A stretch of 5,922 nt of DNA, from NCBI GenBank assembly GCA_900754605.1, contig CAAEDK010000069.1, positions 1 through 5,922 on the forward strand, written 5' to 3'. Made by a program: the position numbers and the translations under genes. Numbering within the stretch: position 1 is the first letter of the stretch; every line of letters begins with the position of its first letter. The notes beneath the pieces were generated by a model. The model was given only the letters and a program-made list of their open reading frames with translations, searched no databases and was not told where the DNA came from. Positions 2,099-5,922 of this stretch are shown piece after piece. Origin of the DNA: an uncultured Oscillospiraceae bacterium (GTDB taxonomy: Bacteria; Bacillota_A; Clostridia; Oscillospirales; Oscillospiraceae).

Positions 2099-2224
2099 GA
2101 AATTCTGCCGAAAACCGTAGGCGGACTGCGGCAGGAACTGGTGAAGCTCAACCAACTGGCATGGCAGGCCGGCAAGGACACAATCCCCCGCTGGACAGAA
2201 ACAGAGGGTTATCCGGTTGATGGT
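2099..2224 (+). pseudogene. Unidentified coding-like remnant
   Basis: After the TGA at 2096 the frame stays open and protein-like (ILPKTVGGLRQELVKLNQLA followed by WQAGKDTIPRWTETEGYPVD). It has no start or ribosome binding site of its own and stops resembling a protein where the opposed chemotaxis fragment begins near 2225. It could be the tail of another decayed gene fused to the RtcB-like piece. I do not recognise the family. Confidence 0.3.
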
Positions 2225-2505
2225 AGCCTCCACCGCTGTATTCAATACAAGAATATTGGTTTGGAATGCAATATTATCAATCGTCCTGATAATGTTCTCA
2301 ATTTCATCGGAGCCCTGTTTGAACTCTTCCATAGAACCGGCCTGTTCGGCCGCTCCCCGAACCAACGCTGCGCTCCGCTGAAAACCTGATCGCCGGTTTT
2401 ATCATTTGGGTTGCTTTGAATGTCAGCATCCAGATTTCCCTGGGCAAATTCCTGTGCAATCAAAATGGGTATCCATACTGCCAATTTGTCAAATCCGGTT
2501 CTGTA
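2225..2505 (-). pseudogene. Methyl-accepting chemotaxis protein remnant (HAMP plus signalling tip)
   Basis: On the minus strand, AQEFAQGNLDADIQSNPNDK (about 2385-2460) matches the HAMP linker of chemotaxis receptors. A frameshift near 2370-2385 then leads into FQRSAALVRGAAEQAGSMEE, GSDEIENIIRTIDNIAFQTN and ILVLNTAVEA, the well-known MCP hairpin-tip region (normally [22 protein letters not shown]). Homology stops abruptly at about 2225, exactly where the tip should continue into AARAGEAGKGFAVVADEVR. Most of the region between HAMP and tip, and the transmembrane/sensor part, are missing. A functional receptor would be over 500 residues, so this is a collapsed fragment. A MITE-like element lies just upstream of it in its own orientation. 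Confidence 0.75.
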
Positions 2506-2718: not shown

Positions 2719-3465
<747 letters not shown>

Positions 3466-3517
3466 ACAGCAGGCAGCTTCACAAAAAGGTGTACCTTTCT
3501 GTGAAGCTGCCTGCTGT
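3466..3517. repeat. Long perfect palindrome P1 after the recombinase gene
   Basis: An 18-bp perfect stem (3466-3483 with 3500-3517) starts on the base after the recombinase stop codon. Its centre, AAAGGT-GT-ACCTTT (3485-3498), is itself a dyad about a GT dinucleotide. No T-run follows (the next bases are CTCTATAC), so it is a poor standard terminator despite the strong stem. Its core recurs inverted at 3591-3621. Confidence 0.8.
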
Positions 3518-3532
3518 CTCTATACATTATCC

Positions 3533-3560
3533 TTATCGTCCAAATCCTCGTCATGTTAAG
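3533..3560 (-). promoter_or_regulatory. Possible flagellar sigma (sigma-28/sigma-D) type promoter, minus strand
   Basis: On the minus strand, GACGATAA (3540-3533) resembles the sigma-28 -10 element GCCGATAA. It is preceded at 15 bases by CTTAA (3560-3556), a weak version of the TAAA -35. In the present orientation it would transcribe back toward the recombinase gene, not toward the TnpB-like gene. It lies between P1 and P2. The match is imperfect and could be chance. Confidence 0.25.
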
Positions 3561-3590: not shown

Positions 3591-3621
3591 GGCTTACAGA
3601 AAGGTACACATTTCTGTAAGC
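3591..3621. repeat. Palindrome P2, inverted relative of P1
   Basis: An 11-bp perfect stem (GCTTACAGAAA 3592-3602 with TTTCTGTAAGC 3611-3621) surrounds GGTACACA. Its reverse strand shares 14 identical bases with P1: GTGTACCTTTCTGT at plus-strand 3489-3502 and minus-strand 3609-3596. It also shares flanking AAGC/GCTT arms. The two palindromes therefore face each other across about 93 bp. Confidence 0.75.
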
Positions 3622-3661: not shown

Positions 3662-4831
3662 ATGTCATCCAGAGAAAAACAATATAATGTCCTCAAGCTG
3701 CGCCTGTATCCAACCTCAGAGCAAGCAGAACTTTTTGAAAAGACCTTTGGCTGCTGCCGCTATCTCTGGAACCAGATGCTGGCTGACCAGCAGCGGTTTT
3801 ATTTGGAGACTGGCGTCCACTTCATCCCTACCCCGGCAAAATACAAAAAGGGAGCCCCTTTTCTAAAAGAAGTGGATAATCAGGCACTCATTCAGGAGCA
3901 CAACCAGTTGTCCCGGGCGTTCCGTTTATTTTTTCAAAACCCGGAGGCTTTTGGGCATCCCAATTTTAAGCGAAAAAAAGATGACCGGGACTCCTTCACC
4001 GCCTGCAATCATGTGTTTACTTCCGGCCCGACCATTTATACCACGCGGGACGGCATCCGCATGACCAAGGCCGGAATGATTCGGGCTGTCTTTCCACGCC
4101 GCCCGCAAAACGGGTGGAAACTCAAGCGCGTCACAGTGGAAAAGGCCCGGACGGGCCGCTATTACGCTTATGTCCTGTATGAAAGCCTGGTACAGCCGCC
4201 GGAGCCGGTCCTTCCCGCTCCGGAGCGCACCCTAGGGCTGAAATATTCCCTGCGCCACTTTTATGTGGACGACCAGGGCAACAGGGCCGATCCACCCCGC
4301 TGGCTGAAACAGTCCCAGGAAAAGCTGGTGCATCTTCAGCGGCGGCTGAACCGAATGCAGCCTGGCTCGAAAAATTATGAGGAAGCCGTACTGAAATACC
4401 GCCTGCTCCATGAGCACATCGCCAATCAGCGCAGAGACTTCCTCCACAAGGAATCCCGGCGGATAGCCAACGCCTGGGATGCCGTATGTGTGAGGGGCGA
4501 CGATCTGGGTGCGATGACGGACACGCTGATTCAGGCCGGGAGCGCCGTAAAGGAGGCGGGGTTCGGGATGTTCCGGGAGATGCTGTGCTACAAGCTGGCC
4601 CGCCAGGGAAAAGCATTTATTCAGGTAGACCGGTATCTCCCTACCACCCGGAGCTGTTCGGCCTGTGGGTTGACGCGGGACGCGCTCCATGCGCGGGATT
4701 ACAGGCGAAGTGGTTGGGTCTGTCCAGAGTGCGGCGCGGTTCATGACCGTGAGGTCAACGCGGCAAAAAATATCAAAGCCCGTGGGCTGGAACAGTTTTT
4801 TGATTTACAGGGGCAGGACAGGAGCGCCTGA
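3662..4831 (+). CDS. Nuclease-dead TnpB-family protein, candidate TldR (RNA-guided repressor)
   Basis: The 389-residue protein is a full-length TnpB/OrfB homologue. It has an N-terminal helix-turn-helix-like OrfB domain (KTFGCCRYLWNQMLADQQ, about residues 27-44), a middle wedge region (LKRVTVEKARTGRYYAYVLY, 154-173), a RuvC core and a zinc ribbon with Cys332, Cys335, Cys354 and Cys357. Active TnpB needs three acidic RuvC residues. The first, the Asp in a GLDYS-type motif, is Lys194 here (LGLKYS; codon AAA 4241-4243). The second, the Glu in a VVVEDLNL-type motif, is Arg278 (VCVRGDDL; codon AGG 4493-4495). Only the third, Asp362 in HDREVNAAKN, remains. Two charge reversals in an otherwise well-kept protein indicate loss of cleavage with retention of RNA and DNA binding, as in TldRs. 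No IS200/IS605 transposase is present. The start at ATG 3662 has GGAGG at 3645-3649. A structured RNA and csrA-flagellin follow. Role as repressor is inferred. Confidence 0.85.
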   Translation: MSSREKQYNVLKLRLYPTSEQAELFEKTFGCCRYLWNQMLADQQRFYLETGVHFIPTPAKYKKGAPFLKEVDNQALIQEHNQLSRAFRLFFQNPEAFGHPNFKRKKDDRDSFTACNHVFTSGPTIYTTRDGIRMTKAGMIRAVFPRRPQNGWKLKRVTVEKARTGRYYAYVLYESLVQPPEPVLPAPERTLGLKYSLRHFYVDDQGNRADPPRWLKQSQEKLVHLQRRLNRMQPGSKNYEEAVLKYRLLHEHIANQRRDFLHKESRRIANAWDAVCVRGDDLGAMTDTLIQAGSAVKEAGFGMFREMLCYKLARQGKAFIQVDRYLPTTRSCSACGLTRDALHARDYRRSGWVCPECGAVHDREVNAAKNIKARGLEQFFDLQGQDRSA

Positions 4832-4849
4832 CCCTTTCCAGGCGTCCTG

Positions 4850-5042
4850 TGCTCCGCCTTGACAATATGCCGGCCGGGACACCGGTGAACGCCCATGATT
4901 CCGGCTGGAGAGCGTGGATGGAACGCCGGTGGGGAGCCTCCGCCCTTCCATCCACATTCTCCGGACCGCCGAGTGGGAAACGAGAGGCCGCATCCGTGCG
5001 GCTGAAGCCTGTAAGCAGGCGTCCACAATATTATGACGATGT
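4850..5042 (+). ncRNA. Candidate guide RNA (omega-RNA-like) of the TnpB-like protein
   Basis: TnpB and TldR guide RNAs are normally encoded at and just after the 3' end of the protein gene, with the guide at the RNA 3' end. This stretch has no ribosome binding site-led frame but has several strong hairpins. One pairs GTGGATGGAA (4914-4923) with TTCCATCCAC (4946-4955), extended by GGAGA 4907-4911 with TCTCC 4958-4962. Another pairs GCCGCA 4987-4992 with TGCGGC 4997-5002. The last pairs GCCTG 5007-5011 with CAGGC 5016-5020. GGGACACCGGTGAACGCC near 4876-4893 resembles, from memory, a motif in clostridial TnpB omega RNAs. If the scaffold ends with the last hairpin, the guide would begin at 5021 (GTCCACAATATTATGACGAT), just before a T5 run at 5042-5046. 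The 5' end and the exact guide boundary are uncertain. Confidence 0.55.
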
Positions 5043-5050
5043 TTTTGCAC

Positions 5051-5090
5051 GCGGCGCATGGATGCGCGCCGCTGGCCACAGGAAGGAGAT
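5051..5090 (+). promoter_or_regulatory. csrA leader: GGA-loop hairpin and ribosome binding site (possible autoregulation)
   Basis: GCGGCGC (5051-5057) pairs perfectly with GCGCCGC (5066-5072), exposing the loop AUGGAUGC with GGA at 5060-5062, close to the CsrA consensus ARGGAUGU. Eight bases further is ACAGGAAGGAG (5078-5088), the ribosome binding site, with two more GGA triplets. CsrA dimers typically bridge a loop GGA and a GGA in the ribosome binding site, so negative autoregulation is plausible but inferred. Confidence 0.5.
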
Positions 5091-5095
5091 CCCCC

Positions 5096-5515
5096 ATGCT
5101 TCAGCTCTCTCTGCGCCCCGGTGAGTATCTCACCATCCATGGCGACATTGTGGTACAGCTCGCTCAGCTCTCTGGCAGCCGCGCCTTCCTTCGGGTAGAG
5201 GCCGACCGCAGCATCCCCATTGTGCGGGGAAAGGTACTGGAGCGGTCGGGGGCTCCCCGGCCGGAGTGCCTGGCATCTCTTCCCCGCAGCCGCGCCAGGA
5301 AAGGCCGGGATGCCGTCTACCACTGGAGTGCGGAGCGGGAGCGGGCCGTCCGCACAATGGAACAGCTCCTGGAGCGGATGGAGGCCGGGGACAGCCGGGA
5401 GGAAGCCCAGGCGCTGCGGGCACAGTTGGAGCACCTGCTTCCAACTGTATGGGAGGAGGAGCTGTCCGGCCAAATACAGGCCCTGTTCCGCAGCAAAACA
5501 GCCCAGGACGTATAA
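5096..5515 (+). CDS. csrA: CsrA-family RNA-binding translational regulator with long C-terminal extension
   Basis: The N-terminal 52 residues match CsrA/RsmA: MLQLSLRPGEYLTIHGDIVV, then a Gly-Ser turn, FLRVEADRSIPIVRGKVLER. Leu4, Arg7, Gly9-Glu10 and the key RNA-binding Arg44 line up with the well-studied proteins; the position of Arg6 is Leu. The protein is 139 residues, about twice the usual 60-75. Residues about 60-139 form a charged, helix-prone tail (SAERERAVRTMEQLLERMEA and AQALRAQLEHLL) that could be a coiled coil. CsrA dimers bind GGA motifs in mRNA leaders; in Gram-positive bacteria the classic target is flagellin mRNA, with FliW as antagonist (no fliW in the window). ATG 5096 is chosen over an in-frame ATG at 5033 because it follows a strong ribosome binding site and begins the conserved MLxL motif. 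Flagellin starts 186 bases downstream. Confidence 0.88.
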   Translation: MLQLSLRPGEYLTIHGDIVVQLAQLSGSRAFLRVEADRSIPIVRGKVLERSGAPRPECLASLPRSRARKGRDAVYHWSAERERAVRTMEQLLERMEAGDSREEAQALRAQLEHLLPTVWEEELSGQIQALFRSKTAQDV

Positions 5516-5701
5516 AGAACCACCTTAGTTTGGTTTCACCCGGTCTCGCGAACCGGTTGAAATAAATCGAAGTGCAGGGACACAGCCCGCCAAAGGCCAC
5601 GGCGTCTGTGTTGGTCTGCCAAACCACTAAACGCACATGAGGGATCGGTGCGTTGGACCAGCAAACCCAATATCATTTCAGAAAGAAAGGAAACGATCGA
5701 A
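5516..5701 (+). promoter_or_regulatory. Structured flagellin leader with CsrA-type GGA sites
   Basis: The gap before flagellin holds several hairpins: CCGGT 5540-5544 with ACCGG 5552-5556; ACACAG 5580-5585 with CTGTGT 5606-5611, continued by CGCC 5588-5591 with GGCG 5601-5604; and a perfect 7-bp stem AACGCAC 5630-5636 with GTGCGTT 5648-5654. The last exposes AUGAGGGAUCG with GGA in the loop, a good fit to ARGGAU. Other GGA triplets are at 5578-5580 (GCAGGGAC) and in the ribosome binding site GAAAGAAAGGA (5681-5691). I could not identify a convincing sigma-28 or sigma-A promoter, so transcription may come partly from csrA or from an unrecognised promoter. Confidence 0.55.
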
Positions 5702-5922
5702 ATGAGGATCCAGCATAACATCATGGCGATGAACGCCTACCGCAACTACGCCAACAACACATCTTCTCTGTCCAAGAACCTGGAGAAGCTGTCCTCCGGC
5801 TACAAGATCAACCGCGCCGGTGACGACGCCGCAGGCCTCGCCATCTCCGAGAAGATGCGCGCCCAGATCACCGGCCTGGACAAGGCCCAGGACAACGCCA
5901 AGGACGGCATCTCCCTGGTGCA
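5702..5922 (+). CDS. Flagellin, N-terminal part (gene continues past the window)
   Basis: The first 73 residues read MRIQHNIMAMNAYRNYANNT, then LSKNLEKLSSGYKINRAGDD, AAGLAISEKMRAQITGLDKA and QDNAKDGISLVQ. This is the conserved D0/D1 N-terminal domain of flagellin, the filament subunit exported by the flagellar type III apparatus. The SSGYKINRAGDDAAGLAISE signature is diagnostic. GAAAGAAAGGA at 5681-5691 is the ribosome binding site, 10 bases before ATG 5702. The codons are strongly biased to C-ending forms (AAC, ATC, AAG, GCC), as expected for a very highly expressed gene. The D2/D3 variable region and C-terminus are outside the window. Its position after csrA and the GGA hairpin in its leader point to CsrA control; the TnpB-like protein may be a second regulator. 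Confidence 0.95.
   Translation, partial: MRIQHNIMAMNAYRNYANNTSSLSKNLEKLSSGYKINRAGDDAAGLAISEKMRAQITGLDKAQDNAKDGISLV

Follow-up and report, generated by a model that had tools for sequence, protein, structure and literature searches.

A phage-encoded, fliC-associated TldR of Enterobacter was reportedly described by Wiegand in 2024. The closest described relatives of the locus presented here are the csrA-associated TldRs of gut commensals (Oscillibacter/Flavonifractor), which combine a nuclease-dead TnpB and a 3' guide RNA with linked csrA and flagellin genes (Walker et al., Nat Microbiol 2026, PMC13418256). The methods of that paper list seven csrA-associated TldRs as previously reported. Its text presents RIP-seq and ChIP-seq data on members of the group, targets inside flagellin coding regions, binding of CsrA to a flagellin 5' UTR and, for an Oscillibacter member, a dual guide RNA cut by RNase III; in F. 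plautii it describes inversions of ~120 bp beside hin, in a region that holds a FliA-dependent promoter. The fliC-associated Enterobacter TldR, as it appears in the same text, acts as a repressor of its host's flagellin and has a replacement flagellin linked to it, both of which liken it to the present locus; unlike the TldR described here, it is phage-borne and its guide is directed to the fliC promoter region (PMC13418256). Among the papers listed in our literature searches there was no second one on the csrA-associated TldR clade.

The DNA analysed here, referred to as the window, is a stretch of 5,922 nucleotides that matches the corresponding record of Flavonifractor plautii ATCC 29863 (locus L001) at ~98.5-99.4% across most of its length, which makes a different F. 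plautii strain its most likely source. Judged by its sequence, the window locus is of the csrA-associated TldR type, with csrA and a flagellin gene less than 3 kb from tldR, hin upstream and a predicted target within a flagellin coding region. Against the text of PMC13418256 we found no essential difference: both have a TnpB that is nuclease-dead or, in the window, predicted to be so, a 3' guide RNA, linked csrA and flagellin, and an upstream hin; the published inversion of ~120 bp with its FliA promoter has a putative counterpart in the window, and the target lies, or is predicted to lie, within a flagellin coding sequence. The find is thus real but not new, because the same kind of system was published in 2026, and on the text of that report this kind of system is already known. 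This analysis contributes a guide-target pair for F. plautii, predicted sparing of the linked flagellin through synonymous differences, the replacement of the third catalytic residue, and CsrA hairpin candidates ahead of csrA and of each flagellin. Neither an F. plautii guide-target pair and linked-flagellin sparing nor CsrA-like sites in the csrA leader or before linked flagellins were found in the main-text passages of PMC13418256 on this clade. The main text likewise makes no mention of synonymous changes, self-targeting or the system's own flagellin, and synonymous sparing is not claimed here as unpublished.

The tldR gene (3662-4831, forward strand) begins with ATG and encodes a 389-aa TnpB homologue with 99% identity to the F. 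plautii ATCC 29863 protein. Three Pfam models, HTH_OrfB_IS605, OrfB_IS605 and Cas12f1-like_TNB, each score over their cut-offs, and the protein shares its domain order with ISDra2 TnpB (PDB 8bf8, 8h1j), with an alignment to 8bf8 over 365 residues (residues 12-376 of the window protein, E 7e-38), which bears out the earlier reading of a full-length TnpB homologue. In this alignment Lys194, Arg278 and Glu364 of the window TldR pair with Asp191, Glu278 and Asp361 of ISDra2 TnpB, which we take to be the catalytic triad of an active nuclease. By this pairing, all three RuvC catalytic residues are replaced in the window protein, and loss of cleavage is predicted. Alignment with an active TnpB, which the preliminary description had proposed as a check, confirmed two substitutions that it had named, Lys194 for the first Asp and Arg278 for the Glu. 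Its third point, retention of the final RuvC Asp at residue 362, did not hold: Asp362 pairs with ISDra2 Asp359 rather than Asp361 and varies within the clade (55 of 137 homologues have Asp there), and the catalytic position is the replaced Glu364. Asp280, in a DDL motif resembling EDL, was considered as the position of the catalytic Glu and was rejected because four active-looking relatives (ISDra2, L023, L079 and L021, a Paracholeplasma relative) align their Glu to Arg278 without a gap; the Asp280 column holds Asp in 135/137 homologues. The zinc-ribbon cysteines at 332, 335, 354 and 357, also named earlier, are present and invariant across 38 aligned sequences. An AlphaFold model of the window TldR was poor (pLDDT 62, pTM 0.38) and too weak for a reading of the RuvC pocket.

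To describe variation at these positions, 137 homologues were aligned, comprising the 120 best of 1922 listed database matches, 16 loci and the window, some of them near-identical; as the 120 are the closest of the listed matches, the figures describe the clade and not all TnpBs. The Lys194 column contains K in 132, Q in 3 and N in 2 sequences, the Arg278 column R in 136 with one gap, and the Glu364 column E in 132, G in 3 and D in 2. The median dN/dS of tldR was 0.17 (range 0.09-0.36; 105 pairs from 15 genes, Nei-Gojobori, custom script), with the qualification that dS was high, ranging from 1.1 to 2.2 across the 14 pairs that include the window. Neither this set nor the scaffold alignment described below contains L006 or L001, the latter being near-identical to the window. 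On these sequence comparisons, tldR is under purifying selection and not in decay.

TnpB genes are common and frequently decayed, and an ordinary dying tnpB of the IS200/IS605 type, its catalytic residues lost by drift and its neighbourhood accidental, would be in keeping with the broken copies that we observed in relatives. Some relatives carry broken csrA-linked tldR copies beside intact ones (one with a TGA, G004:C1; two partial, G014:C92 and G015:C152), and ATCC 29863 has one tnpB relative with an in-frame TAG and another cut by a contig end. The same Lys/Arg/Glu replacements are, however, found in nearly all 137 homologues, dN/dS is about 0.17, and the csrA-flagellin neighbours and the guide are conserved, which is not the random decay of frameshifts and variable substitutions that the preliminary description had held would point to a dying transposon gene. 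No transposase of the IS200/IS605 type was present among the six window open reading frames scanned with Pfam, and a search of the draft ATCC 29863 assembly for the Y1 transposase (PF01797) gave 0 matches, in agreement with the earlier statement that no such partner is present. The lack of a Y1 partner in the window reading frames and the ATCC 29863 draft led us to reject an IS200/IS605 element as the identity of the locus, and together with the conserved substitutions and purifying selection it speaks against a dying transposon gene, the probability of which we regard as very small. A phage origin was also rejected: a search of viral_contigs for relatives of the window TldR, which reaches close relatives only, returned one pattern match and none that tblastn confirmed.

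The neighbourhood of tldR was compared across 16 loci (L001-L016). A flagellin start lies downstream of tldR in all 16, and a pattern search places csrA after tldR in 13; inspection of the sequence adds L009 and L014, whereas in L012 the 170 nt 3' of the guide contain no csrA start. By nucleotide match, a hin-like gene is found upstream of tldR in 10/16 loci, L006 and L015 having too little upstream sequence to judge. Conservation of the Lys/Arg substitutions and of the csrA-flagellin neighbourhood, which had been put forward as a check, was therefore found on both counts (K 132/137, R 136/137; flagellin in 16/16 loci). As a separate observation, three of the hin-like genes (L008, L011 and L012) lie on the opposite strand, so that the orientation of hin relative to tldR varies.

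In the window, Pfam places csrA at 5096-5515 and a flagellin gene from 5702, both on the forward strand, as the preliminary description had stated. The csrA product has 139 aa, with the Pfam CsrA domain at residues 1-50 followed by a C-terminal extension; in 12 relatives (excluding L001) the linked CsrA is 121-134 aa long in ten and shorter in two (62 and 76 aa). By eye, the extension has a similar form in relatives, and the window CsrA has no NCBIfam match. ATCC 29863 has two csrA genes, one adjoining fliW and the other being the tldR-linked copy, without an adjacent fliW. The linked flagellin gene (5702-5922) runs off the window, matches Pfam Flagellin_N and has CAT AAC ATC as codons 5-7.

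Between tldR and csrA lies a guide-RNA scaffold (about 4869-5023, forward strand) that is conserved in the aligned loci. Its consensus fold contains 45 pairs, 21 of which show pair-keeping changes on both sides (RNAalifold, 15 sequences), and includes a long hairpin (4907-4929/4940-4962), which may or may not be cut by RNase III. The window piece 4832-4960 folds with a z of -2.81, and an Rfam search gave three matches, each far below the gathering score. The scaffold is followed by an 18-nt guide, CACAATATTATGACGATG (5024-5041, forward strand). Its first base is presumptive and may lie up to three bases later, a start at 5027 also being possible because the terminal scaffold bases vary among loci.

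With one mismatch, at position 13, the guide matches codons 5-10 (HNIMAM) of an unlinked flagellin gene in ATCC 29863 (17/18; G001:C233:1713-1730). Allowing up to three mismatches, the 3.8-Mb ATCC 29863 assembly contains three sites only, namely the guide's own position, the unlinked flagellin at one mismatch and a further site at three; the reversed guide pattern, used as a control, gave 0 matches in the same assembly at the same threshold. A TnpB homologue with a substituted RuvC, under selection, with a predicted structured guide RNA and a chromosomal guide match, is by these features a predicted TldR. The mismatch at position 13 (window 5036) is a general one and a point against the proposed targeting, as this position is A in 15 of 16 guide entries and G in all 34 flagellin starts compared. 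In the consensus fold, the A at position 13 pairs with a U near the 3' end of the scaffold (14 UA and one UG of 15), yielding a short GUC/GAC stem with the seed inside its loop.

The flagellin linked to tldR encodes the same amino-acid stretch and matches the guide at 14/18 positions, and it could be argued that TldR targets this adjacent flagellin, or its own operon in autoregulation, rather than the unlinked gene. The linked gene, however, reads CAT AAC ATC where the unlinked gene reads CAC AAT ATT, with the same residues encoded, and across guide positions 1-12 this gives 3 mismatches to the linked flagellin and 0 to the unlinked one. Because these synonymous differences fall at guide positions 3, 6 and 9, the linked flagellin should be spared. 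A 6-nt seed reported for an enterobacterial TldR in the text of PMC13418256 also argues against the adjacent gene as target.

The same comparison was extended to 15 guides, with the best unlinked and the best linked flagellin scored over positions 1-12. "Unlinked" here denotes that no tldR was seen close by, and contig ends could conceal some. The unlinked flagellin was the better match for 13/15 guides, with one tie (the G003 guide, CACAACATTGTG) and one opposite result, the G004 guide CCAAACATT, which is closer to a linked flagellin. Restricting the comparison to positions 4-12 again gave 13, 1 and 1, with a perfect unlinked match for 11/15 guides and a perfect linked match for 1/15. Mean mismatches at positions 1-12 were 2.96 for linked (24 comparisons) and 1.06 for unlinked flagellins (16 comparisons); the rank test P of 3.5e-5 is descriptive only, because the flagellin pairs are not independent.

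Several guides fit less well. In 8/15 the best unlinked flagellin is mismatched at position 2 or 3, which would belong to the seed if the guide begins at 5024. The CACAACATTGTG guides have 2 (G003) and 3 (G014) mismatches to their own unlinked flagellin at positions 1-12, and the G012 guide has 3. In G014, the flagellin beside a truncated tldR fits the guide better (1 mismatch) than the unlinked one. Two flagellins adjoining broken tldR copies (L094, L045) were kept out of these tallies; their three comparisons showed 0, 1 and 3 mismatches over positions 1-12. Outside the 15-guide count are G006, whose locus carries an insertion and whose guide escaped the pattern, G015, in which no guide was found, and G013, which has no listed unlinked flagellin; L056 was unused in the guide comparison, its start being mis-set. 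The G004 guide fits best the linked flagellin of another locus, which is what targeting of adjacent flagellins would lead one to look for; set against the 13/15 guides that favour the unlinked gene, we consider such targeting, or autoregulation, very unlikely. The most likely predicted target of the TldR is the unlinked flagellin and not the neighbouring one.

Candidate CsrA sites were found in the leaders of both linked genes in the window. In the csrA leader, a predicted hairpin (5051-5072, forward strand) presents a CsrA-like ATGGA (5058-5062) in its loop and is a candidate autoregulatory site; in the 5' UTR of the linked flagellin, a CsrA-like AGGGA (5640-5644, forward strand) lies in a predicted hairpin loop. 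Overall, neither leader folds better than its shuffles (z -0.45 for csrA, -0.95 for the flagellin). By eye and without a shuffle control, 11 of 14 csrA leaders, the window included, contain A-N-GGA with the GGA unpaired in a hairpin loop; in L007 and L014 the motif is likely the Shine-Dalgarno sequence too, L005 lacks the motif in such a loop, and the starts in L003 and L016 are doubtful. Hairpin loops with A-N-GGA precede 14/16 linked and 12/13 unlinked flagellins, compared with about 5% in mononucleotide shuffles. As such loops precede linked and unlinked genes alike, CsrA can probably act on both flagellins, and it is not obviously discriminating between them; CsrA action on the csrA and flagellin leaders would follow from these motifs. 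The frequency of the loops before flagellins would also suit an arrangement in which flagellin is controlled mainly by CsrA and Hin and TldR serves in another role, for example on RNA. That the guide is conserved and matches flagellin codons, and that ChIP-seq of relatives shows DNA targeting in the text of PMC13418256, makes this arrangement highly improbable.

Upstream of tldR, a gene at 2857-3465 (forward strand) encodes a 202-aa hin-like serine recombinase with an N-terminal catalytic domain (Pfam Resolvase, residues 5-149). The best NCBIfam model was an Mpi-type invertase, at 52 bits against a cut-off of 272. An IS607 element, suggested by the serine recombinase, was rejected: the IS607 transposase model matched in part only, at 24.5 bits against a cut-off of 110, and the catalytic domain lies at residues 5-149. 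Between this gene and tldR, a 22-nt inverted repeat (91% complementary, 93 nt between the arms) forms a left crossover-like site at 3481-3502 (forward strand) and a right one at 3596-3617 (reverse strand), their starts 115 bp apart; among the 12 loci searched, of which the window is one, 8 carry comparable paired sites. The Hin-type recombinase gene is thus followed by a putative invertible segment of roughly 115 bp between the paired inverted sites. The recombinase, these sites and the readable guide at 5024-5041 had gone unnoticed in the preliminary description.

Within the segment, a FliA (sigma-28)-like promoter (3533-3559) has one mismatch to TAAA-N13-16-G[AC]CGATA[AT]. As it is located on the minus strand, it is directed away from tldR in the window, and the segment would be in the OFF state here. 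Shuffled segments contain a FliA-like match in 10% of cases for the window segment, and in 6-10% with the strict pattern for eight segments; a similar pattern also matches coding places in the window at 190-215 and 3736-3763. The strict pattern occurs in 5/8 segments, four directed away from tldR and one towards it. Segment orientation is identical in the window and ATCC 29863, the two sequences compared; the segment may invert in the window locus. FliA-like sites 5' of the unlinked flagellin were found solely with a looser pattern and are not put forward here.

We consider it very likely that the window carries a flagellin switch that is phase-variable and belongs to the csrA-associated TldR type, and we infer binding and repression by the window copy. 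The scaffold, the guide-flagellin match and the conserved substitutions uphold the proposal of the preliminary description, a clostridial TldR that works on flagellar genes and is encoded in a locus of tldR, guide RNA, csrA and flagellin, with two refinements, namely that the predicted target is the unlinked flagellin and that all three catalytic positions are replaced. In such a switch, Hin would invert the segment of roughly 115 bp so that the FliA-like promoter faces tldR, and in this ON state a single transcript would yield TldR, the guide RNA, the second CsrA and the linked flagellin. TldR with its guide RNA would bind codons 5-10 of the unlinked flagellin without cutting, blocking transcription, and CsrA would stop translation of the residual flagellin message. 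The linked flagellin would escape TldR because different codons encode the same residues within the guide match. This proposal has in common with Hin/fljBA phase variation of Salmonella an invertible promoter segment and repression of an alternative flagellin; it differs in that the Salmonella repressor, FljA, is not RNA-guided.

More tentatively, and with less confidence than doubt, these elements may form one integrated design: RNA-guided self/non-self discrimination through codon choice, with the linked HNIMAM stretch synonymously rewritten in the seed; CsrA-hairpin feedback through the csrA leader and both flagellins; a FliA-driven invertible promoter that sets the state; and a position-13 mismatch kept for pairing with the scaffold 3' end, with the seed looped until target binding. 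The proposed switch would give a gut commensal a naturally occurring form of RNA-guided gene control, in which DNA inversion, RNA-guided repression and CsrA seem to converge on a single surface protein. With the guide-target pair and the predicted synonymous sparing, the published model can be put to a direct test in F. plautii.

Finally, other features were observed in the window. A gene at 443-1300 encodes an AraC/Rob-type regulator with a GyrI-like effector domain (Pfam), and an open reading frame at 2216-2365 (reverse strand) contains, by eye, what may be left of the signalling domain of a methyl-accepting chemotaxis protein (EQAGSMEEFKQGSDEIENIIRTIDNIAFQTNILVLNTAVEA). A MITE-like element of ~167 bp at 2511-2677 has inverted ends, TAGGGCTTGTTTGAAAA and TTTTCAAACAAGCCCTA, that were placed by eye, and locus L013 carries sequence 74% similar to this element.
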